Shown here: piece by piece, positions 9,690 through 25,342 of the stretch | Numbering within the stretch: the stretch's first letter is position 1 | Layout of the letters: each line of letters begins with the position of its first letter | Assembly (NCBI GenBank): GCA_937916515.1 | Contig: CALFSX010000118.1 | Coordinates: 1 to 32,172 of the forward strand | DNA: 32,172 nt | Source: an uncultured Planctomycetaceae bacterium | GTDB lineage: Bacteria > Planctomycetota > Planctomycetia > Planctomycetales > Planctomycetaceae | Direction: 5' to 3' | Position numbers and translations under genes: made by a program | The notes under the pieces: model-generated | The model's database searches: none | Seen by the model: only the letters and a program-made list of their open reading frames with translations | What the model was told of the DNA's origin: nothing

Positions 9690-10045
9690 AGCACATATCC
9701 TTATGAAGCAAAAGCAACCGCACACACGCCGCCGCTTGTTGTTCGCAAGTATAGCAAAGAATCAAATCGCATGCCTCCATTTGAAATGAAGCCCCACAGG
9801 TGTCCGGCTAAGCCGCAGACCCAGCACGTGTATAATTTGTTTGGTGGGCCGCATGTTTGTGATTGGTGGGCAATGCCCACCCTACTTGACTGAGCTTGTG
9901 AACGTAACCCCGCGGTTTCGTTCGTACCTCGCTCCAACCACCGCCACCCTCGCCTACCGATCAATGGGGATTCATTCTTTTTGCCTGGAATCTGCTAACC
10001 AGCGCACTCGGCGAGAAACGCCCGCTTCAACATATCCCATCGAAA
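9690..10045. other. Intergenic region with dispersed repeats
   Basis: About 355 bases between a minus-strand membrane protein and the 3' end of the patatin gene. It contains a family B palindrome (9863-9879) and most of a family C repeat (10002-10075), whose inner end runs into the patatin reading frame. No gene is seen. Confidence 0.6.
9863..9879. repeat. Palindromic repeat family B, copy 2
   Basis: GGTGGGC-AAT-GCCCACC, with arms identical to those of the copies at 220 and 11035. The flank CCCTACTTG resembles the edges of other copies of this common planctomycete-type repeat. Confidence 0.75.
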
Positions 10046-10075
10046 CTACGCCATCGCCCGCCGGGGCGTCCCGGC
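10002..10075 (-). repeat. Dispersed repeat family C, copy 1 (3' end of patatin gene)
   Basis: Shares CGCACTCGGC, TTCAACATATCCC and GCCCGCCGRGGCGTCYCGGC with copies at 13263, 13419 and 17073. On the minus strand it supplies the last codons and stop of the patatin gene, but in a different frame (AGTPRRAMA) from the RDASAG frame used in the fadJ and fadD genes. The inner part is a hairpin (CCGGGACGCCCCGG). Confidence 0.75.
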
Positions 10076-10996
10076 CCCGGCAGTGATGAGGTGGAAGCGG
10101 TTTTCTGTGGGTGCGGATTGGCAGACGGCCGATGTCATGGCTTTGCGGCCTTGTTCGATGAGTAAAGCGGGATCGGAAAAGTCGTACCATGGAGTATAGG
10201 CGACGTCTGGTCGAATGATGACGTCGGCGATGGGTTTGGAATACGCACGCAGAATGGGTTCTCCGATATCGTACAGTCGCATGAAGATGTCGGCGGCGGT
10301 CGAGCATTCGGTGATGGGTTCAACGTTGCTGCCGACGTCGACGGCGATGGTCATGTCGGCGGAGTACGATTTGGCAACGTCGGCAGGAATGGCGTCGATC
10401 ATACCGATATCGCATAGCAACATGTTGCCCCATTTGATGGGAGGAAACACTCCCGGAATGGCGGCGGAGGCCATGACGGCGGCTTGCAGCGGGCCTTCCG
10501 TGAGGACGATTTTTTTGCCGGAGTACAAATCCAGAGCAACAATGCTTAGCGGCGTGCTGGTGTCGCGAATATCGATGTCAGGAATTAGCGCATCAACAAC
10601 TTCCTGCATGATATTGGCTTCGAGCAATGCCGGCTTACTGAACAACGCCGCCAGCTTTCGACGAGCTCCGATGTACTTTTTTACCTGGTGGTACCATGCG
10701 AACAGGCCGGACGCACCTGGTTCGTCGGCTTTGGGAGCCGCCATAAACAATGCTGCCTGTTTGGACTGAAAACGTTCTGACGTCAGATATTCGGTCACGT
10801 GAGACTGCACGGCGGCCGTATCGGGATCGACGGCGCAGAGTGCTCCCGCAAGTCCGCCGATGCTGACACCCACATAGCGTTGAATGCTGATGGGCATTTG
10901 ATGCAGGACTTCAATGACGCCCAGATGAGCGATTCCGCGAGCGCCGCCACCTCCAAGGGCAAGCACTGCTGCTGGGTTTTCAGATGCAATGATCAT
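10046..10996 (-). CDS. Patatin-like phospholipase / lipid acyl hydrolase
   Basis: 316 residues from the ATG at 10996, which has GAGGT upstream; a longer frame would translate repeat DNA. The oxyanion loop GGGGARG (15-21), the nucleophile in GVSIGG (Ser45) and the dyad Asp in LLCDIGMID (Asp196, usually DGG/DGA) are all present, so the Ser-Asp hydrolase should be active. The family releases fatty acids from membrane or storage lipids. There is no signal peptide, so it is probably cytoplasmic (RssA/YlbK-like). It lies 131 bases downstream of the acyl-CoA dehydrogenase gene on the same strand and could feed the beta-oxidation genes. The last nine or so residues (AGTPRRAMA) come from a dispersed repeat. 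Confidence 0.9.
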   Translation of the reverse strand: MIIASENPAAVLALGGGGARGIAHLGVIEVLHQMPISIQRYVGVSIGGLAGALCAVDPDTAAVQSHVTEYLTSERFQSKQAALFMAAPKADEPGASGLFAWYHQVKKYIGARRKLAALFSKPALLEANIMQEVVDALIPDIDIRDTSTPLSIVALDLYSGKKIVLTEGPLQAAVMASAAIPGVFPPIKWGNMLLCDIGMIDAIPADVAKSYSADMTIAVDVGSNVEPITECSTAADIFMRLYDIGEPILRAYSKPIADVIIRPDVAYTPWYDFSDPALLIEQGRKAMTSAVCQSAPTENRFHLITAGAGTPRRAMA

Positions 10997-11034
10997 GGTG
11001 ACCTCGAACGACGTTAGTGTAGCCGATCTTGTAA

Positions 11035-11114
11035 GGTGGGCACCGCCCACCATCCTGTTCAGAACGATCTCTTTGGTGGGCGGCACCCGTTGGAATTGGT
11101 GGGCGATGCCCCCC
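11035..11114. repeat. Cluster of three family B palindromes
   Basis: A perfect unit GGTGGGC-ACC-GCCCACC at 11035-11051, a degenerate unit at 11075-11088 (GGTGGGCGGCACCC) and another at 11098-11114 (GGTGGGC-GAT-GCCCCCC). They fill most of the 131-base gap between the acyl-CoA dehydrogenase stop and the patatin start, and could form RNA hairpins in the operon transcript. Confidence 0.75.
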
Positions 11115-13141: not shown

Positions 13142-13208
13142 ATCAGCCGCCGGGCGTTAGCCCCGGTTATCTGTTGCAAAGAACCGGGGCTAACGCCCGG
13201 CGGCTGAT
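13142..13208. repeat. Perfect 27-bp inverted repeat (family D)
   Basis: Arms at 13142-13168 and 13182-13208 are perfect complements around a 13-base spacer. Each arm carries GGGGCTAACGCCCGGCGGC. Single related copies occur at 13335-13363, 23187-23205 and, weaker, 22991-23015. It lies in the leader of the acyl-CoA dehydrogenase gene and could fold into a very stable hairpin. Confidence 0.85.
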
Positions 13209-13262
13209 TTCTTTGGTTTGTTCCTAAATCACGTTTTGCATTTCACCTCTCAGCTTCTTAAC

Positions 13263-13334
13263 CGCACTCGGCTAATCAAACATTGTTCAACATATCCCGT
13301 CGTTCCAAGCCACCGCCTGCCGAGGCGTCTCGGC
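13263..13334 (-). repeat. Dispersed repeat family C, copy 2 (intergenic)
   Basis: 72 bases matching copy 3 exactly 156 bases further on with few differences. Its minus strand still reads RDASAGGGLERRDMLNNV followed by TGA, the same tail as fadJ, though no gene runs into it. Confidence 0.85.
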
Positions 13335-13418
13335 AAAACCGGGGCTAACGCCCTGCGGCTGATTACATTTGGTTTGCGACTAAATAGTGGTTTGCATCTC
13401 ACCTCTTAGCTTCTTAAC

Positions 13419-13490
13419 CGCACTCGGCTGATCAAACGTTGTTCAACATATCCCTTCGTTCCAAGCCACCGCCCGCCGAGGCGTCTCGGC
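13419..13490 (-). repeat. Dispersed repeat family C, copy 3 (fadJ tail)
   Basis: Covers the fadJ stop codon (13432-13434) and its last 18 codons. The palindrome GCCGAGACGCCTCGGC marks the inner end. Confidence 0.85.
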
Positions 13491-15705
13491 AGACATCGCC
13501 TGTTGGGGCGACTTGGCCGGGGCGGGTGAAGCGTCTTCCGTGACGGGCGGCGAGTACGTGTAGGTTGTTGTTGAGAGCTTCGTTGCCGATGGTTTCGGCG
13601 AGTGTCATGGGGCCGCCTCGAAATGGGGCGAAGCCTGTGCCGAGCACCATGGCGAGGTCCGCCATCCATGCTTCTGCGACAACTTCTTCGTGCAGGCAGA
13701 ATCCCACTTCGTTAATCATCGGGTAGATCAGGCGTCTCTGTATGTCGGTGAGACCGTCGGGCAGAAACACGCCGACGTTGGGATAACCCATTTTGTCTGA
13801 ATTTGAGTCCGCAAGTTTGGACTCGCCGCTGTTGATTGCCAGCGGCTTCAGATTCAACTCTGCCAGGTCTGTTGTGTCGCTGCGTTTGCCTTCAATATAT
13901 TCGTAGAAGCCTCGTCCGCTTTTGCGGCCCGTCCATCCGCGAGCCACCATGGCGCCGAGTAAGCGGATCACTTCGGCGGATTCAGGCAGCACGTCTTCCA
14001 GAGTTCCAGCAACGTGCCATGCAACGTCCAGGCCAACGTGATCGATAAGTTCAATCGGTCCCATTGGCATTCCGAATCGCTTGATCTCGCGGTCAAGTTC
14101 TGTGCCGTCATGACCTTCCATGACCATACGGACAGCTTCGCCGATGTAAGGGAACAGTACTCTGTTGACCAGAAATCCGGGTGAATCGCTGGTGACGATT
14201 GGAGTTTTACCCAGCTTCTTCGCAAGTTTTAAAAGTGTGGCCACGGTTTCCAGGCTCGTACCTGATGCTCGAACCACTTCAACAAGATCCATGCGATGGA
14301 CGGGGTTAAAGAAGTGCAACCCAGCAACTCGATCTGTTCGAATAGTTGCGGAAGCCATTTCGGAAACCGACAGCGCAGACGTGTTGGATACGATGATTGC
14401 TTCGGGCTTCAGTACGGAGTCCAGTGACGCAAAGACGGATTTTTTGACTTCCATCTTTTCGACGACCGCTTCAATCACCAGGTCGCAGTTGGTCATGTCA
14501 TTAAAGTTGTCAGTTACGGAAACGCGACTCAGCACGTTGTCACGTTCTGACGCAGATAACTGTTTTCGAGCGACCATTTCATCCAGCAGGTCGCTTACAC
14601 GATTCAGACCGGCTGCTGCCAGTTCGGGAGTCAGTTCTTTGAAGACGACCGAATAGCCCTTCAAAGCCGCCAACTGTCCGATGCCGGCACCCATTGCACC
14701 GGCACCGATAATTCCGATGCAGCGCACGTCTGGCTGTGGGTAAAGGTGCTCCCTGGCTGATGAAGTGATCTCAGGGTTGAGTTTCAGGGAATCCACCGAA
14801 CGAGCTTTCTCTCGCCATAAAAACAGATTCAACAGATTGCGGCACGTTGGTGTTTCAATAAGGTTCGCGAACTCTCGCCGTTCAACGGCGTAGCCATCTG
14901 CGTGATTGTCGAAGGCAGCCGAAACTGCTTTCACTGCCGCTGGTAACGCGGGGTAGTTTTCTGCATCGCGAGCGATCCGGCGTTCTGTGGTTCTCATAAC
15001 AAACCAGCGGCCCACGCCTGAATCGGCAAGTAACCGCAGAGCTCGCGACTTGACGCTGCGCCGTGACGTTGCCGCTAACTTGCCGCTTGCCAATCGATCC
15101 GCGAAGGTGTTTACCAGATTTTCCCAACCCGCTTCGTCAGCGATGGCATCTACGAGGCCCGCTTTCAAAGCCTTTGCTGCAGTGAGCTTCGTGCCCTGAA
15201 GAATCATGGGCAGTGCGTTTATCAGCCCAACGCGTTTCGGCAGTCTCTGAGTGCCCCCCCAGCCGGGAATCAGGCCGAGCTGTACTTCCGGAAGCCCCAT
15301 CCGCGTTGCCGAACTGTCCATTGCGATTCGATGTCTACACGCCAGTGCGAATTCCAGGCCGCCACCAAGGCAGGGGCCATGAATGGCGGCCACTGTCGGC
15401 ATCGGCAATCGCTCGATTCGGGCAAACAGATCCTGACCGGCGCTGATCACCTCTTCCACTTCTTTTCGAGTTCGCAGTGACGCAATCTTGTTAACGTCGG
15501 CTCCCGCGAAAAATCCCGAAGCCTTCGCGCTGCGGAAGACGACTGCTTTCGGGCGAGTCACTTCCAGTTGCTCCACCACGGCAAGGAGGTCTCGGATGAC
15601 CGAATCGTCTAATACGTTCATGCTATGATCTGCAACGTCGACCCAGACGGTGGTGACTCCCGTTTTGCCTGTTTCCATTCGGAAATGTCTTATATGTCGT
15701 GTCAT
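13432..15705 (-). CDS. fadJ: FadJ/FadB-type multifunctional beta-oxidation enzyme
   Basis: Carries enoyl-CoA hydratase and L-3-hydroxyacyl-CoA dehydrogenase on one chain. 757 residues from the ATG at 15705 with AAGGAA in front. The hydratase domain (~1-190) has HGPCLGGGLEFALACRHR and both catalytic glutamates, Glu118 and Glu140 (GLPEVQLGLIPGWGGTQRLP). The NAD fold begins at GIIGAGAMGAGIG (331-343); the dehydrogenase His is His464 in GLHFFNPVHRMDLVEV, with SNTSALSV upstream. The two C-terminal dehydrogenase domains follow. Residues ~740-757 (RDASAGGGLERRDMLNNV) are encoded by a dispersed repeat and look like an acquired tail. The start is 20 bases after the thiolase stop, as expected for the FadI-FadJ pair forming one complex. 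FadJ rather than FadB is chosen from the FadI-like partner. Confidence 0.94.
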   Translation of the reverse strand: MTRHIRHFRMETGKTGVTTVWVDVADHSMNVLDDSVIRDLLAVVEQLEVTRPKAVVFRSAKASGFFAGADVNKIASLRTRKEVEEVISAGQDLFARIERLPMPTVAAIHGPCLGGGLEFALACRHRIAMDSSATRMGLPEVQLGLIPGWGGTQRLPKRVGLINALPMILQGTKLTAAKALKAGLVDAIADEAGWENLVNTFADRLASGKLAATSRRSVKSRALRLLADSGVGRWFVMRTTERRIARDAENYPALPAAVKAVSAAFDNHADGYAVERREFANLIETPTCRNLLNLFLWREKARSVDSLKLNPEITSSAREHLYPQPDVRCIGIIGAGAMGAGIGQLAALKGYSVVFKELTPELAAAGLNRVSDLLDEMVARKQLSASERDNVLSRVSVTDNFNDMTNCDLVIEAVVEKMEVKKSVFASLDSVLKPEAIIVSNTSALSVSEMASATIRTDRVAGLHFFNPVHRMDLVEVVRASGTSLETVATLLKLAKKLGKTPIVTSDSPGFLVNRVLFPYIGEAVRMVMEGHDGTELDREIKRFGMPMGPIELIDHVGLDVAWHVAGTLEDVLPESAEVIRLLGAMVARGWTGRKSGRGFYEYIEGKRSDTTDLAELNLKPLAINSGESKLADSNSDKMGYPNVGVFLPDGLTDIQRRLIYPMINEVGFCLHEEVVAEAWMADLAMVLGTGFAPFRGGPMTLAETIGNEALNNNLHVLAARHGRRFTRPGQVAPTGDVCRDASAGGGLERRDMLNNV

Positions 15706-15725
15706 CGTGTTTCCTTCCATCAAAT

Positions 15726-17012
15726 TCAGTTGCTGTTTTCTACAACCATCGCGACGCCCTGGCCTCCGCCGACGCACAGTGTTGCGAGTCCTCTCTGCAG
15801 TCCCTTTTCTTTCAGAGCTCGCAGCAACGTGATGATCATGCGAGTCCCCGTTGTTCCCACTGGATGGCCCAATGCGATGGCTCCGCCGTGTATGTTCAAA
15901 CGGTCTACCGGTATTGTTCCCAACGCTTTGGAAAGGCCCAGTTCTTTTTTGGCGAACTCGTCTGATTCAAACGCAGCAAGGCACGCCAGCACCTGAGCTG
16001 CAAAGGCTTCATTGATTTCGAACAGGTCGAAGTCATTCAGGTTCAGGCCCGTTTGTTTCAATAACTTTGCGGTTGCGTAGACAGGGCCAAGTCCCATGCG
16101 AGACGGATCGCAGCCTGCGATGGCATAACTGGTGACGTAGCCCAATGGCTTGACCGAATCTGAATCGACGAGATCGGATCGAGTCAAAACAACAGCCGCC
16201 GCGCCGTCCGTGAGCGGGCAGCTGTTGCCGGGGGTAACAGATCCGTCCGCGTCGAATATCGGACGCAGTTTTTTTAACGCCTCGATCGTTTGATTCGAGC
16301 GTGGTCCATTGTCCTTTTCGATAAGATTGCCGGGCGACGTTTCGAACGGAGTGATCTCACCAGACAGAAAACAGCGTTCGCGAGCTGCCGCGGCTTTGAC
16401 GTGACTGTCCAGTGCGAAACGGTCCTGAGCTTCTCGCGAGATCTTGAATTCGCGAGCCAGCTTTTCCGCCGTTTGCCCCATGTTTAGTCCGCAAAACGGA
16501 TCGGTCAGGCCAAGCATGACTCCGGGAACAGGTTTCAAATGTTTTGGACGCAACCGACTTAAGATCTTCATTTTGGCGAACAAGGTTTTTGCTCGCGCAA
16601 GGTCCGCCAGCAGCTTTGTTGCCGACTTGCCAACAAGCAGAGGAATGTTCGACATCGATTCGGTGCCACCCGCGACAACGGTGTTGGCTCGCCCTTCGTT
16701 CAGAATCTGCCATGCCTGAAGAATGGATTCCATTCCGGAAGCACAGTTGCGATTAACCGTGTGCGCAATCCGGTTCTGCGGCACGCCTGCTTTGAGTGCG
16801 ATTACGCGAGCGATGTTGGCGGAATCGGCTGGCCCCGATACGTTGCCCATCACAACTTCATCGACGCGTCCGGTCGCAATGTTTGCTTTCCCTAACGCAG
16901 CCGCAACGGCAGACACACCAAGGTCCACCGCATGAACGTCGACCATCGCGGTGTAGGCCTTGCAGAACGGCGTTCTCATTCCGCTAAGAATTGCCAGAGA
17001 AGAGGAAGACAT
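15726..17012 (-). CDS. fadI: Acetyl-CoA acyltransferase (3-ketoacyl-CoA thiolase, FadI-like)
   Basis: Cleaves 3-ketoacyl-CoA with CoA in the last step of the cycle. 428 residues, close to the FadI length. The acylated cysteine is Cys90 in NRNCASGMES; the second half-site has His383 in GGAIALGHPVGTTGTR and the base Cys413 in LCVGGGQG. INEAFAAQ is also intact. The ATG is preceded by AAGGAG. It starts 39 bases after the acyl-CoA synthetase stop and ends 20 bases before fadJ, so these three genes are almost certainly one transcript. The insertion around residues 130-165 (LADLARAKTLFAKMKIL) is typical of the FadI branch. Confidence 0.95.
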   Translation of the reverse strand: MSSSSLAILSGMRTPFCKAYTAMVDVHAVDLGVSAVAAALGKANIATGRVDEVVMGNVSGPADSANIARVIALKAGVPQNRIAHTVNRNCASGMESILQAWQILNEGRANTVVAGGTESMSNIPLLVGKSATKLLADLARAKTLFAKMKILSRLRPKHLKPVPGVMLGLTDPFCGLNMGQTAEKLAREFKISREAQDRFALDSHVKAAAARERCFLSGEITPFETSPGNLIEKDNGPRSNQTIEALKKLRPIFDADGSVTPGNSCPLTDGAAAVVLTRSDLVDSDSVKPLGYVTSYAIAGCDPSRMGLGPVYATAKLLKQTGLNLNDFDLFEINEAFAAQVLACLAAFESDEFAKKELGLSKALGTIPVDRLNIHGGAIALGHPVGTTGTRMIITLLRALKEKGLQRGLATLCVGGGQGVAMVVENSN

Positions 17013-17051
17013 GGTTGGGGCTCCTTGGAGGAGAGGGCAGGTTTTCGGGTT

Positions 17052-18953
17052 TCATTTGTCATTTGTCATTGGCGCACTCGGCGGTTCGACGTCATTCAAC
17101 ATATCGCGTCGTTCCACGCCATCGCCCGCCGAGGCGTCTCGGCCTCCCGGCACTCGGCGAAGGTGGCGGCGGATGACTTTGCCGAGGAAGCTGCGAGGCA
17201 GGTCGCCTTTGCAGACTTCGATGGATTTTGGTCGTTTGTGAGCGGATAGGTGTTCTTTACAGAACTCGGTGATGCTGGTTTGGTCGAACGTAGCGTTGTC
17301 GTTAAGGACGATGAAGGCTTTGACGACTTCTCCTTTGTGTTCGTCGGGGATACCGATGACGGCGGCATCTTTGATGGAAGGATGTTTCTTCAGCACCGCT
17401 TCAACTTCCTGTGGATAGACGTTGAAGCCGGACGTGATGATCATGTCTTTTTTGCGTTCCATGATCTGAAACAAACCGTCGTGCGTAATGCGAGCCAGGT
17501 CGCCGGTGTGCAGCCAGCCGTCGTTGGCTGTTCCGTTGGGTGTGTTCAGGTGAGCGCCTGCCAATGGAAGTCCTGAGGCAAGGCGTTCGCGGATGTCGTG
17601 CCAGTAGCCGAGCATTACCTGAGGCCCTTTGACCAGCAGTTCTCCGACTTCGCCAAGCATCACGTCGTGGGCACCTGTTTCCGAATCGACCAGTCGGCAT
17701 TCGGTGTCCGGCAGTGGCAGACCGATGGTGCCGAAGTGAGCCGCACCTTCAAGCGGACCGACGTGAGTGACCGGCGAAGCTTCTGAAAGTCCATAACCTT
17801 CGACCACCAACGCTCCCGTGTGTTCGGCAAATTCGCGGCCGACGGCTTCCGGCAATGGGGCTCCTCCGCTGATAACCCATTTCAGCGATTTCAAGTTTGC
17901 GGGGTGCTTGCGAAGGTGCTCATTCATCGCCACCAGCATCGCCGGGACAGCATGAAAAACTGTGGGACGGTGTTCTTCGATCATGCGAATCGTCTTTCGC
18001 ACGTTGAAGCGGTGATCCATGATTAAAGTGCCAATCATGGCGGCTCCGCCCATCACGTTTGTCGACAGTCCATAGCTGTGGAAGAACGGCAGTACGGCAA
18101 GCAGCTTTTCTTTGCCGACGGCGGCTCCTGCCCAGTAGAACTGCTGCCATGCGTTGGCCACCATGTTGCGATGACTTAGCGTGACCGCCTTGGGATCACC
18201 CGTGGTGCCACCCGTTGGCAAAATGTAGGCTGGAGTGGTGGCCCAGTTCTTCGATTCAGAGGGCGCATCTTCGACCGGCTTGATCACTCCTCGGCGCGCC
18301 ATCGCTTCGGTCATGAGCGCATCAAGTTTAGGAACGGGCGAAGAGTCGTCGGAATCTTCTGCCATCAGTTCATCCCAGAACCAGCCAACGTGTTCGTTGG
18401 CGGTCATCCACCACAAGCCGGTGCGTTTTTTACGCAGGTACAGATAACCGAGCTGTTCGAACAGTGGCAATCGAGGACGCAGCGATACGAACAGCGTTTT
18501 GTCGGGGCGATGGGGGCCGGAAATTAGTGCGGCCAGCATGTCCAGGCAGATGACCACTTTGCAGTCAGTGGCTTCCAGCATGCGATCGGTTTCTTCCTGT
18601 ACGGCCATTGGGCTTAAAGCAACGGCGATTGCTTCAGCGCGCCAGATGCCGTTCAGGGCAATGATGTACTCGGGAATGTTGGGCAGCAAAATGCCAACTC
18701 GGTCACCGGGTTTTACGCCAAGTCGCCTTAGTGCAGCAGCGGCACGAATGGCGTCGAGGTTAAGCTCTTCCCACGTCCACTCAACGTCGTTGTAGTGGCA
18801 GGCGATGCGACCTGGCATCAGACAGGCCGCTCGTTCGAGCAGCACCCATGCGGGAATGTCCGGGTAATCCAGTGTTCGCGGAACTCCCGCGGGATAACGG
18901 ACAATGCTTGAAGCGTCGTTTAGGGACGTAGTCCCCCCGAAAATCTTTGCCAT
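17052..18953 (-). CDS. fadD: Long-chain acyl-CoA synthetase (AMP-forming)
   Basis: Activates free fatty acids with ATP and CoA. 633 residues from the ATG at 18953 with GAGGT upstream. The ATP loop is YILPTGGTTGDPKAVTLSH (243-261); other signatures are GYGLSEASPVTH, DGWLHTGDL and ERKKDMIITSGFNVYPQEVE, and the catalytic C-terminal lysine is in SFLGKVIRR (Lys592). The protein would normally end soon after this lysine. Here about 30 further residues (GRDASAGDGVERRDMLNDV and a short end) are read from a dispersed repeat. A ~60-residue insert (LRPRLPLFEQLGYLYLRKKR) before the ATP loop is seen in bacterial long-chain synthetases. It is the first gene of the beta-oxidation cluster, and the regulatory region should lie upstream in 18954-19330. 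Confidence 0.93.
   Translation of the reverse strand: MAKIFGGTTSLNDASSIVRYPAGVPRTLDYPDIPAWVLLERAACLMPGRIACHYNDVEWTWEELNLDAIRAAAALRRLGVKPGDRVGILLPNIPEYIIALNGIWRAEAIAVALSPMAVQEETDRMLEATDCKVVICLDMLAALISGPHRPDKTLFVSLRPRLPLFEQLGYLYLRKKRTGLWWMTANEHVGWFWDELMAEDSDDSSPVPKLDALMTEAMARRGVIKPVEDAPSESKNWATTPAYILPTGGTTGDPKAVTLSHRNMVANAWQQFYWAGAAVGKEKLLAVLPFFHSYGLSTNVMGGAAMIGTLIMDHRFNVRKTIRMIEEHRPTVFHAVPAMLVAMNEHLRKHPANLKSLKWVISGGAPLPEAVGREFAEHTGALVVEGYGLSEASPVTHVGPLEGAAHFGTIGLPLPDTECRLVDSETGAHDVMLGEVGELLVKGPQVMLGYWHDIRERLASGLPLAGAHLNTPNGTANDGWLHTGDLARITHDGLFQIMERKKDMIITSGFNVYPQEVEAVLKKHPSIKDAAVIGIPDEHKGEVVKAFIVLNDNATFDQTSITEFCKEHLSAHKRPKSIEVCKGDLPRSFLGKVIRRHLRRVPGGRDASAGDGVERRDMLNDVEPPSAPMTNDK
17073..17143 (-). 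repeat. Dispersed repeat family C, copy 4 (fadD tail)
   Basis: Shares CGCACTCGGCGG, TTCAACATATC, CGTCGTTCCA and GCCCGCCGAGGCGTCTCGGC with the other copies. It is translated as part of the acyl-CoA synthetase C-terminus in the same frame as in fadJ. Confidence 0.85.
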
Positions 18954-19115
18954 CACACACCTCGCTTGCAGAGCACAATTTGCTGCTGATCGATGGACCG
19001 GCAACTTGTTGTGATGTTGTGGAGGCGATCTGGTTTCAGACTTTCAAGTAGTCTCTGCCGTTGTTTGACAATCGCTTGTATGTCAGTAGGTTTTGCCTGA
19101 CAGCAGGCGTTTGTC

Positions 19116-22601: not shown

Positions 22602-22850
22602 TGCTTCATCGATCTTGCCGGCAATGAAAGAAGCTTCATGAGAAGATTTCAAAGCGGTGACAAACTTAACTGACACCCATCATCAACACTCCTCATATAA
22701 GTCTAAACGCAGGTCAGCCTTGATGATCGTCTGGAAAAGTCACATTTTTGTTGGCACGACTCTTCCTGGAACAGCAACCGGCGCGGCTGGAATAATCGAT
22801 TCTTTTAGAGTATTGCTCAAAAAGATGCCTGCACGGTGGGCGCATGAATC

Positions 22851-22970
22851 TCGTAGCGACAACGGAACGGCACGGCACGGCACGGCACGGCGACCAGAAC
22901 GTTCCACGTCCTGTCTCAATCCACGCCCTTTCTCACTCCAGCCCACCAGGTCAAGAACGACGCGCTTGTA
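22851..22970 (-). repeat. Dispersed repeat family A, copy 3
   Basis: Inverted relative to copies 1 and 2. Shared blocks are TCGTAGCGACAACG, GAACGTTCCACGT, ATCCACGCC and CACCAGGTCAAGAACGA. It is expanded relative to the others by a run of ACGGC units and an insertion before the CCAGGTCAAG block. Confidence 0.65.
22867..22891. repeat. Pentanucleotide tandem run (ACGGC x5)
   Basis: Five exact ACGGC units in a row inside repeat copy A3. The other copies have a single unit-like sequence here, so this looks like a local slippage expansion. Confidence 0.85.
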
Positions 22971-23186
22971 AGCTGGACAGCGCAATTCTCAATCAGCCGC
23001 AAGGCGCTAGCCTCGTTTTTTTTCCGCCTGTCGTTACCCACAACAATTTTGATGGCCACCAGCAAATTGGTTGGCTGTTCTTGTTTGCGGGGCAAAGCTC
23101 CATTCGTTTGCCTGGCCTTTGGCCCGAATTTGACACTTGCAAATTCAGATTCGTGGGCAGAGACAAGGTTGTTTCCCCTGGTTGGC

Positions 23187-23205
23187 AAAAACCGGGGCTA
23201 ACGCC
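23187..23205. repeat. Family D single copy
   Basis: AAAACCGGGGCTAACGCC, matching the arms of the inverted repeat at 13142-13208 and the bridge at 13335-13363. A degenerate reverse copy is at 22991-23015 (AATCAGCCGCAAGGCGCTAG). Confidence 0.65.
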
Positions 23206-23283
23206 AACGCCGTGAAGGATTCTTGAGCTGAAACCCAATGAGTTAAAGCGAGACATCGCAGTCTGGAGTTTGGGTGCGTTCAA

Positions 23284-23477
23284 GTCACGAAGTGACGTTA
23301 GGTGATAGCCACGGGCGCGAGCCCGTGGAACAGCATTCGACAGTCGTTTTCAGTCCTGAAGGGACGACAGGCAACAACGCGAAATGACACGCCTATCGTC
23401 CCTTCGGGACTTTTCGTCTGACTTTTTGCAAACCACGGGCTCGCGCCCGTGGCTACTACCTGCCGTCACTTCGTGAC
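23284..23477. repeat. Three-tier nested palindrome element (~194 bp)
   Basis: Outer arms of 45 bp (23284-23328 and 23433-23477) are complementary with about five mismatches. Each outer arm is itself made of two small palindromes: GTCACGAAGTGAC and CCACGGGC-GCGA-GCCCGTGG. Inside are second arms of 21 bp (23352-23372 and 23391-23411; core TCCCGAAGGGAC) with two mismatches. The whole could extrude as a branched cruciform. No open frame lies within it, so it would be a non-autonomous element. Confidence 0.85.
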
Positions 23478-24306
23478 TGAAACGCATTCGACATGACTGC
23501 CTCTTCTCCAGTTCAAACAGTGTTTTTGCTTTTCAAAATCCTTCACTGCGTTGGGCGAACGCCCTGTGGCTGATGTGGCTGATCCGGTATCTTTCAAGCT
23601 CGCTTCCAGTATGGCGGCTGGCACCGAACGTGGAGCATTGAATCGCCGGCGATCCTGTTTCACGGCCGACATGTTAACGCTGGTGATTACCAATGCGGCT
23701 GCTCCCATTCTGACCGCTCCTTAAAGCGTTATGTGGCTGCGATTGCAACTCTGGCCGCGTCAACCAGTGGAGCCGTCGTTCGGCAGGCTTTCTTTCATCA
23801 GGTTGTGAACGAAGTGTCGCGAGAGAAATCGTCGTCGCGAGATTCTGTTGCTGTGATGGCATCGGATTGCAACCTGCGTCAGACACAGCCTTCACTTTCT
23901 CGTATTCACCAACGTTGGATCAACTGTGTCGATCGCGCCGATTTGCCGGTTCTGCCGATGCCTTTTCATTGAGCATCTTTGCCAGGCATGTTGGCCAGCG
24001 TTGGATAGTGATCTCCATTGCCGGGGATTTTGCCCTGGTGGGAATAACCATTAAATCACAAGACATTAACTGCGTTTTTACAGGTGAAACACAGACTTTC
24101 CGCAGTCAGGAGGTACTTGTCGACACACGAACCATTGGTCTGGCACGCCTATTGCTTTCCATAGATTCGGTTGCTTAGCAACATCGGGATCAAGGATCGA
24201 TTACTCAGCTGATCGCATGTCTGCAAATTTTCAGAGCAACAACAGAACGATTTTGATCGTCGGCTCGACTGAAATTTCAAACACATGCCTTTGTTAGGAG
24301 CCTGCA

Positions 24307-24794: not shown

Positions 24795-24815
24795 GTTGGG
24801 GGTGGGAAATGACGG

Positions 24816-24904
24816 TCGTAGCGACAACGTCGCGGCTCGGCGATTAGCACTTCCCACGTCTTGCGGCGATCCACGCCACCAGGTCAAGGACGAAGCCCTT
24901 GTTA
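24816..24904 (-). repeat. Dispersed repeat family A, copy 4
   Basis: Contains TCGTAGCGACAACG, CGGCTCGGCGATT, ATCCACGCCACCAGGTCAAG and CGAAGCCCTTGTTAG, i.e. the reverse of copies 1 and 2. The end of the element coincides with the TAA stop of the kinase gene at 24902. Its minus strand reads KTWEVLIAEPRRCRYDRH, similar to the peptide read from copies 1-3. Confidence 0.75.
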
Positions 24905-25342
24905 GTCGTCGTCTTCGACGATTGGCAGTTCGGAATTTCGTTGGCGTTCCATGGTGATCTTGCGACCACCGTTGGTGTATTCGACAAAATTCAGATACGC
25001 TCGCATCAACATCAGACCGCGTCCGCATGGGCGATCGATAAAATCGTCGGCTGTTGGATCAGGAACGTCTTCGGGGATGAAGCCTTCGCCCTGATCTTCC
25101 ACTTCCACACGCATCATTTCGTCGCCGACATCCGCGTGTACCGTAACCAGCTTGGCAACGTCGCTACCATTGCCATGTCTGATGGCATTAGTGATCGCTT
25201 CTTCCAGCGACAGTCTCATCGCGAAGATGTCCCGCATGCTGTATTCATGCTTCTCCATCAACGTCACAATCTGCTCCTGCACAGCCAACCCTTCGGTTGT
25301 GTCGCTGGGGATTGCAACGCGGATCTGCGAGACCTCAGGCAT
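24902..25342 (-). CDS. Anti-sigma factor serine kinase (RsbW/SpoIIAB-like)
   Basis: GHKL-type ATPase that in its family binds a sigma factor or phosphorylates its STAS antagonist. 146 residues from the ATG at 25342, with GGAG about 11 bases upstream; a GTG start 30 codons earlier has no ribosome site. The N box is LSLEEAITNAIRHGNG (45-60), the G1 box VEDQGEGF (81-88), and the G2 box GRGLMLM (107-113), all intact. The end is acidic (VEDDD). The antagonist gene lies 143 bases upstream on the same strand. No sigma factor or PP2C phosphatase is in the window, so the target is unknown. Confidence 0.9.
   Translation of the reverse strand: MPEVSQIRVAIPSDTTEGLAVQEQIVTLMEKHEYSMRDIFAMRLSLEEAITNAIRHGNGSDVAKLVTVHADVGDEMMRVEVEDQGEGFIPEDVPDPTADDFIDRPCGRGLMLMRAYLNFVEYTNGGRKITMERQRNSELPIVEDDD

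Follow-up and report, generated by a model that had tools for sequence, protein, structure and literature searches.

Introduction

Repeats near the 3' ends of genes are known from several bacteria. GTAG repetitive extragenic palindromic sequences (REPs) are reported to provide TAG stop codons, and some of them lie inside open reading frames (ORFs) (PMC3733652). Rickettsia palindromic elements are inserted in-frame into proteins (PMC3733652). In S. pneumoniae ATCC 700669, 58 coding sequences overlap BOX elements, and in 36 of them the stop codon at the very 3' end is encoded by the BOX repeat, while strong evidence for truncation is lacking (PMC3049150). The enterobacterial repeat units RU-1 to RU-3 have a length of 103–168 bp and resemble miniature inverted-repeat transposable elements (MITEs); a copy of RU-1 at the 3' end of ECA3499 from Erwinia carotovora seems to remove the stop codon and adds a C-terminal peptide (PMC2759123). 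Here, a stretch of 32,172 nucleotides from an uncultured Planctomycetaceae bacterium (the window) was analysed, in which the neighbouring genes fadJ and fadD end in similar tails encoded by a dispersed repeat, designated family A. We consider it probable that this repeat is a dispersed, mostly untranslated hairpin element of Fuerstiella with a length of about 70 bp, which resembles REPs and BOX and is located at the 3' ends of genes, and that the tails are by-products. Both family A and a second family, designated B, lie at native stop codons with a precision close to a single nucleotide.

Like REPs, family A consists of palindromic repeats that are dispersed near the 3' ends of ORFs. It differs from them by the lack of a constant GTAG or CGTC tag; the base preceding TAG varies, and copies that are not located at a stop codon mostly lack TAG. 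Moreover, the unit is longer (about 70 bp) and has a two-part layout; 21 of the 36 copies at stop codons occupy one of two adjacent positions; and a link to a REP-associated transposase is missing. The palindrome of a REP comprises 20–40 bp; family A has a supported hairpin of 16 nt inside its unit of about 70 bp. The pneumococcal BOX repeat, with which family A is compared by description and not by sequence, is likewise found at the 3' ends of coding sequences. However, 36 of 89 copies of family A follow the stop codon or overlap only its last base, and a stop codon inside the element serves fewer genes. In contrast to Rickettsia palindromic elements, many copies of family A lie behind stop codons, and only the 5' part of 16 nt is a clear palindrome. 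RU-1 in ECA3499, again compared by description and not by sequence, represents the same kind of accident as seen in fadJ and fadD, whereas precise anchoring at stop codons is not among the RU features described in the available part of PMC2759123. A MITE is characterized by terminal inverted repeats and a direct duplication of its target; no long terminal inverted repeat is present in the consensus fold of family A.

Results and Discussion

Placement of family A at stop codons

The window corresponds to contig C118 of genome G000, which comprises 8.33 Mb; seven other genomes of the genus are designated G001 to G007. Four relatives of fadJ (n=4) were found in named records, two of them from Fuerstiella and two from metagenome-assembled genomes of Planctomycetaceae.

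For the analysis of placement, 98 listed copies were reduced to 89 by removing duplicates and copies with less than 320 nt upstream. A copy was considered anchored if the stop codon of a sense ORF with at least 100 codons ends within positions -12 to +4 relative to the first base of the element. This applies to 36 of the 89 copies. Thirteen of them have an offset of +1, which means that the first base of the element doubles as the third base of the stop codon; eight have an offset of 0, and 15 lie elsewhere in the interval. A stop codon ahead of the element or overlapping its first base is the commonest single arrangement, and a stop codon inside the element is used in some frames only. The earlier note had regarded the repeat as a cassette that delivers a stop codon, which is at variance with this arrangement.

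Windows of equal width, shifted upstream by 40, 80, 120 and 160 nt, yielded 4, 1, 4 and 2 of the 89 copies, respectively. If only the 74 copies flanked on either side by 320 nt or more are considered, 33 are anchored in sense orientation, and none has an antisense stop codon at the same boundary (p ~2e-12). TAG is the stop codon at 24 of the 36 anchored copies, as compared to 28 of 89 background ORFs taken from two contigs of this genome.

Native gene ends

Thirteen genes of G000 were picked for having an ORF end close to an element. The C-termini of 12 of these genes served as queries against all eight genomes of the genus, an integrase-like gene (recognized by eye) being excluded; rows with less than 45% identity were removed, and the remaining orthologues were read to their stop codons. 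For the TIM-barrel gene on contig C261 (PF01261) and the PEP-utilizing-enzyme gene on contig C306 (PF02896), the end codon matches that of seven out of seven congeneric orthologues each. In G005, the orthologue of the latter has an element at the corresponding position. We take this gene on C306 to encode PPDK. The agreement is less exact for other genes: the FMN-oxidoreductase gene on contig C214 shares its end with two of five orthologues, and the others are longer by one or two residues.

Twelve genes with a family B element were searched as well, and ten had orthologues with at least 50% identity among the fetched loci. Of the 45 orthologue rows obtained here, 26 could be aligned up to the final residue and had their stop codon at this point, with TAA, TAG and TGA mixed. 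Judged by these comparisons, the elements mostly lie at or near native gene ends and not at truncations, and most of the compared genes have lost little or no coding sequence.

Family B

Family B begins with CAAGGGCTTCGCCCTTG and shares GGTGGCGTGG and CGCCGAG with family A; its 5' hairpin is different. With up to three mismatches allowed, its core occurs at 428 places in the genome (control: 0) and at 43 places in one other genus, so that altogether two of 58 genomes were positive. No place was found in the other seven genomes of the genus. By eye, pieces of family B were also recognized in the window at 1-70 and 134-203, and as inverted pieces near 22820-22876 and 24809-24916.

The placement of family B was determined for 84 sampled copies. 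Twenty-four are located one nucleotide after the stop codon of a sense ORF, and TAA is used in 20 of these 24 anchored copies of G000. In five further copies, an ORF stops at +17 inside the element. The peptide QGLRP followed by a stop codon is encoded by five of the 84 copies. Every other sense offset is represented by at most two copies, and the antisense maximum is four copies, at -79.

The contribution of the flanking sequence can be estimated from sites in the same DNA. Copies of family B flanked by CTAAC are found 19 times at stop codons, 11 times in intergenic regions and four times inside ORFs. For background sites, the corresponding numbers are 36, 273 and 605 (CTAA) and 3, 79 and 145 (CTAAC). 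Comparing stop with intergenic locations for CTAAC-flanked copies and CTAA sites results in an odds ratio of 13 (p ~7e-10), a value based on a crude ORF caller and on loci most of which were fetched for holding copies of family B. A preference for CTAA sites does not suffice to account for the placement of family B at stop codons.

Two other origins of family B were considered by eye. Many copies start with YYYAAC directly after stop codons, which is reminiscent of an integron attC site; this origin was set aside, since the 3' end GTTGTCG is unlike GTTRRRY and is not complementary to the 5' end. A tRNA-like origin was considered for GTTCGAATC.

Structure and distribution of family A

An alignment of 22 copies defines a unit of about 70 bp, which consists of a 5' hairpin, the conserved GGGCGRTGGCGT, a variable middle and the end CGCCGAG. 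The hairpin comprises 16 nt with six base pairs and an ACGC-type loop. In the consensus fold, columns 1-6 pair with columns 11-16, and three further pairs are formed. In an alignment of 120 matches (108 of the rows distinct) that was made with the covariance model described below, pairing of the first helix is seen in 98.3% of cells. The covariation of the whole structure amounts to 0.102, compared to 0.051 in shuffled columns; none of 500 shuffles reached 0.102 and all slid versions scored lower, although related sequences can beat shuffles and an alignment fitted to a model leans towards this model.

A blastn search of the genome with a threshold of E<=10 yielded 46 places; some of the weaker matches belong to family B. 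The hairpin core with up to three mismatches has 26 genome matches, compared to none for the reversed control. A covariance model, R1, gave 31 matches in G000 at E<=0.01 and was positive in seven of the eight genomes of the genus. The 66 matches elsewhere in the genus are distributed over G003 (31), G005 (14), G004 (7), G001 (6), G007 (6) and G002 (2). At the same threshold, no match was found in G006 or in 140 further relatives outside the genus, and among 246 genomes drawn from the phylum only G000 itself was matched at E<=1e-4; both scans with the covariance model used stricter filters, by which some weak matches were lost.

On contigs C1, C29, C54, C138, C208, C215 and C325 of G000, copies of family A form short tandem arrays or lie close to the end of the contig. 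Longer arrays may therefore be collapsed in the assembly, and the copy numbers are minimum values. By eye, the first 27 nt of the element were also seen in tandem ahead of a full copy on contigs C297 and C121 of G000 and on C40 and C90 of G003, which looks as though the 5' module were able to multiply independently.

An element with such a hairpin might be primarily a selected RNA structure of the 3' untranslated region (UTR) rather than a mobile repeat that targets sites; directly after the stop codon, it would stall terminating ribosomes or shield the end of the mRNA, and would have been kept and spread for this effect. The sense orientation, the location within -12 to +4 and the covariation of the hairpin agree with this explanation. 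For REPs of E. coli located near stop codons, an effect on translation is reported (PMC12306157). Furthermore, the same gene end carries an element in more than one species: this is the case for the gene on C306 in G000 and G005, as described above, and for a gene of G001, G002 and G007, which presumably encodes an AspRS-like protein. At the AspRS-like site, the ends of the element are kept while its middle drifts. The 5' 30 nt are retained in 30/30, 29/30 and 29/30 positions, and the middle, with 13/27, 22/44 and 22/44, drifts faster than the 3' flank with 47/66, 48/64 and 49/66. On the other hand, family B, which was found at 428 places in G000, at 43 in one other genus and nowhere else in its own genus, has the look of a burst and not of shared regulation; copies exist inside reading frames, too; and distances of 0 to 1 nt would seem to be tighter than a regulatory hairpin needs. 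Taken together, a primary role as a selected RNA structure is possible but rather unlikely.

A standard intrinsic terminator was considered and rejected: terminator-like sites in the window between 13100 and 17200 are no more frequent than in shuffled sequences (4 versus 5.8). One terminator-like site is located about 15-45 nt past the copy on C306 and was scored on the opposite strand. Rfam contained no match to the element, as judged by scans of the window and of five loci with copies of family A or B; these gave only Acido-Lenti-1 elsewhere and sub-threshold matches to mir-929 away from the element.

The palindromic nature of the repeat, its dispersal and its location near the 3' ends of ORFs would also be expected for a classical REP family that is moved by a REP-associated tyrosine transposase (RAYT; Y1 HUH). 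GTAG REPs are reported to give TAG stops to flanking ORFs (PMC3733652), and the preference of anchored copies for TAG given above is in line with this. However, neither GTAG nor CGTC was recognized by eye as a constant tag in the flanks at the hairpin foot, matches to Y1 transposases amount to zero in both G003 and G007 with their 31 and six copies, respectively, and of the 30 loci with a Y1 match in the genus, one has an element of family A in its flank. We therefore regard mobilization of family A by a RAYT as improbable. Locus L101 (G000, contig C216, around 9796-10137), where a match to a Y1 (IS200-like) transposase lies between palindromes of the type CCACCGGCTTTAGCCGGTGG, may represent another, separate REP system.

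Tails of FadJ, FadD and other host proteins

The earlier note had proposed that the repeat is a portable tail-plus-stop cassette for fadJ and fadD, which would possibly mark the proteins of one complex. All three copies on which it relied are present on the minus strand (Table 1), and FadJ and FadD are unrelated proteins with different Pfam domains, as had been stated. The tail of FadJ reads RDASAGGGLERRDMLNNV and is followed by a stop codon inside the element; that of FadD reads RDASAGDGVERRDMLNDV. Fifteen of 18 residues are common to both tails. FadD continues beyond the repeat (EPPSAPMTNDK) to a TGA that is located 89 nt from the element start and thus outside the repeat, which hence supplies no stop codon to fadD.

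Both tails had been assumed to lie past the normal ends of the proteins. For FadD, five orthologues stop 1 to 13 residues beyond RRxLR and show no conservation there, so that the tail begins near the normal end. For FadJ, the assumption is too simple, since all five congeneric orthologues fetched carry on with a conserved KPSAWLV, which is absent here. Judged by these orthologues, the FadJ tail takes the place of a conserved native end. Two observations had been named as arguing against a cassette, namely orthologues ending in the same peptide and a sequencing frameshift. None of the five fetched orthologues of FadJ and none of the five of FadD has the tail, so that the first of these observations did not refute the cassette. 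A simple frameshift is not its cause either, because by eye the other two frames of fadJ do not restore KPSAWLV.

The claim that the dispersed repeat gives C-termini to several unrelated proteins was confirmed. Five of the 13 genes of G000 introduced above read into the element: fadJ, fadD, a patatin-like gene, an inositol-monophosphatase-like gene and one ORF of 527 residues without a Pfam hit. They do so in two frames with different peptides. The first frame, RDA(S/P)AG..., is used by fadJ, fadD and the 527-residue ORF, and in another copy this frame reads RDAPAGDGGRDASAGGGVGATGYVEE. The second frame gives (G)(T/A)PRRAMA plus stop in the patatin-like and the inositol-monophosphatase-like gene. 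Across the genus, the element is read in all three frames, by 12, 6 and 8 ORFs in frames 0, 1 and 2, respectively; these ORFs have at least 150 open codons upstream, and some may be spurious. Since all three frames are used and the peptides differ, it is not a peptide that is kept, and the concept of a portable peptide is not supported.

A third copy is intergenic and encodes the FadJ peptide and stop, as reported in the earlier note. It belongs to a local duplication of 124 bp (13212-13335 versus 13368-13491; 156 bp apart, 90% identical), and recent copying explains the shared peptide and stop. The two copies show four differences, three of which are located in the peptide part and are synonymous (codons inspected by eye). 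This synonymy, the presence of similar tails on two beta-oxidation enzymes from one cluster and the recurrence of QGLRP plus stop in family B could be taken to mean that a cassette is kept for a useful tail, which perhaps marks one enzyme complex. Such an explanation is very improbable. The peptide changes with the frame, the tail of the neighbouring patatin-like protein is different, the stop codon of fadD lies outside the element, the tail occurs in none of the fetched orthologues, and the 36 copies that come after a stop codon are not translated by the respective gene. Moreover, the two tailed genes outside the cluster are located on other contigs (C51 and C121), which makes a mark for one complex unlikely. 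The tails of FadJ and FadD are probably accidental by-products of a translated repeat and may be neutral. None of the tails, that of family B included, looks like a maintained peptide.

Copies of family A inside long ORFs were found in-frame at three loci, L052, L022 and L168 (Table 1). The orthologues of the L052 and L022 hosts are shorter at the element site, except for the G004 orthologue of L052, which has a diverged insertion-like stretch at this site. By eye, the L168 ORF of G004 is the L052 orthologue, with the element at a different site. The comparison with Rickettsia palindromic elements made in the earlier note thus has some basis in the in-frame internal copies. Both internal hosts of G000 match one Pfam family, DUF7133, and the palindrome of the element is partial.

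Origin of the placement

The reading favoured here, a mostly untranslated hairpin repeat at gene 3' ends, can be put in terms of a short sequence, mobile now or until recently, which ends up on the coding strand directly 3' of a stop codon, moved perhaps by some enzyme. Most likely, its insertion would favour a sequence resembling a stop codon, TAG or TAA. Copies behind stop codons would be tolerated, or might be mildly useful as hairpins of the 3' UTR with some effect on the mRNA or on termination. If the stop codon of the host was lost, or if the insertion occurred just ahead of it, translation would continue into the element, whose sense frames are often open; this would have given rise to the tails of FadJ and FadD.

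Several observations weigh against this reading. Fifty-three of the 89 copies of family A are not anchored; 25 of them have an incoming ORF (some of which are short and perhaps spurious) and 28 have neither, although several of these 28 are the second copy in an array. Family A does not adhere strictly to the coding strand: eight of the 74 copies have an antisense stop codon at the other end of the element (compared to 33 in sense orientation, p ~6e-6), and seven of these eight are also anchored in sense orientation, so that the element is enclosed by two convergent genes. ORFs traverse six of 90 copies in sense and three of 90 in antisense orientation; three of the six sense ORFs belong to G003 loci and may be spurious, two to G000 and one to G004. 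All 84 copies of family B, regardless of their flanks, are divided by the crude ORF caller into 23 at stop codons, 37 in intergenic regions and 24 inside ORFs, and the four antisense ORF ends at -79 are probably due to a stop codon inside the element. No site was found that lacks the element between two intact flanks, so that insertion as such is inferred. No transposase could be tied to the element, and G003 has its 31 copies without matches to a Y1 transposase. Finally, the pattern of conservation at the AspRS-like site suggests that the element itself is under selection. For three other pairs, the contrast between the 5' 30 nt and the middle is weaker or absent (KAAM, 25/30 versus 18/29; LQQ, 27/30 versus 24/29; C306, 28/30 versus 26/30), which makes the signs of selection appear mixed.

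A more specific version would hold that families A and B are mobile repeats that integrate at the ends of reading frames, on the coding strand and at native stop codons, with A mostly at TAG and B at (C)TAA, beyond what the numbers of sequence sites predict. We consider this version unlikely; if it were true, it would represent a new mode of targeting by a signal of translation termination or of the gene end, and not by DNA sequence alone.

Features of the window

The coordinates of the genes and repeat copies are listed in Table 1. The thiolase gene lies between fadJ and fadD, and no match to the element was found at its end by searches with blastn and the covariance model.

Table 1. Repeat copies and genes of the window, and family A copies inside long ORFs of G000 and G004. 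E-values were obtained with the fadD copy (window 17073-17153) as query against the genome.
Feature	Position	Strand	Match or domains
Family A copy, end (GTPRRAMA*) and stop of patatin-like ORF, frame unlike that of fadJ and fadD	10003..10075	-	92.2 bits
Patatin-like phospholipase, same cluster	10046..11086	-	PF01734
Second family A copy, intergenic, within local duplication	13263..13334	-	E 5.4e-14; 84.8 bits
Family A copy, C-terminus and stop of fadJ-like ORF	13419..13490	-	E 1.1e-16; 84.6 bits
fadJ-like multifunctional enzyme (enoyl-CoA hydratase and 3-hydroxyacyl-CoA dehydrogenase)	13432..15777	-	PF00378, PF02737, PF00725
Partial, degenerate copy of the 5' module, adjoining the fadJ copy upstream, inside the fadJ tail	13490..13518	-	69% to D3 reference copy
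Thiolase	15726..17012	-	PF00108, PF02803
fadD-like acyl-CoA synthetase	17052..19004	-	PF00501, PF13193
Family A copy read through at C-terminus of fadD-like ORF, stop outside element	17073..17143	-	79.4 bits
In-frame family A copy inside long ORF, L052	G000 C48:19944-20015
In-frame family A copy inside long ORF, L022	G000 C15:30161-30231
In-frame family A copy inside long ORF, L168	G004 C1:2060601-2060672

Two further features were noticed in the window. Another palindromic repeat, AACCGGGGCTAACGCCCGGCGGCTGAT, is located at 13142-13208, 13337-13363, 22991-23020 and 23181-23205, and thus partly within the duplication beside fadJ. An inverted pair of Acido-Lenti-1 RNAs (RF01687) occupies 23283-23328 (-) and 23433-23478 (+), about 100 nt apart; locus L127 has the same layout.

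Significance

An earlier description of families A and B was not found in the literature searched, which left most papers from subscription journals and all of bioRxiv outside and is thus weak evidence of absence. It is the placement that is striking, and probably not the tail itself. With such repeats, the choice of a target can be tested against selection. Furthermore, the loss of a stop codon beside a translatable repeat is a simple route to look-alike C-termini in unrelated proteins. For the annotation of genomes this is a warning, because shared tails need not imply shared function.

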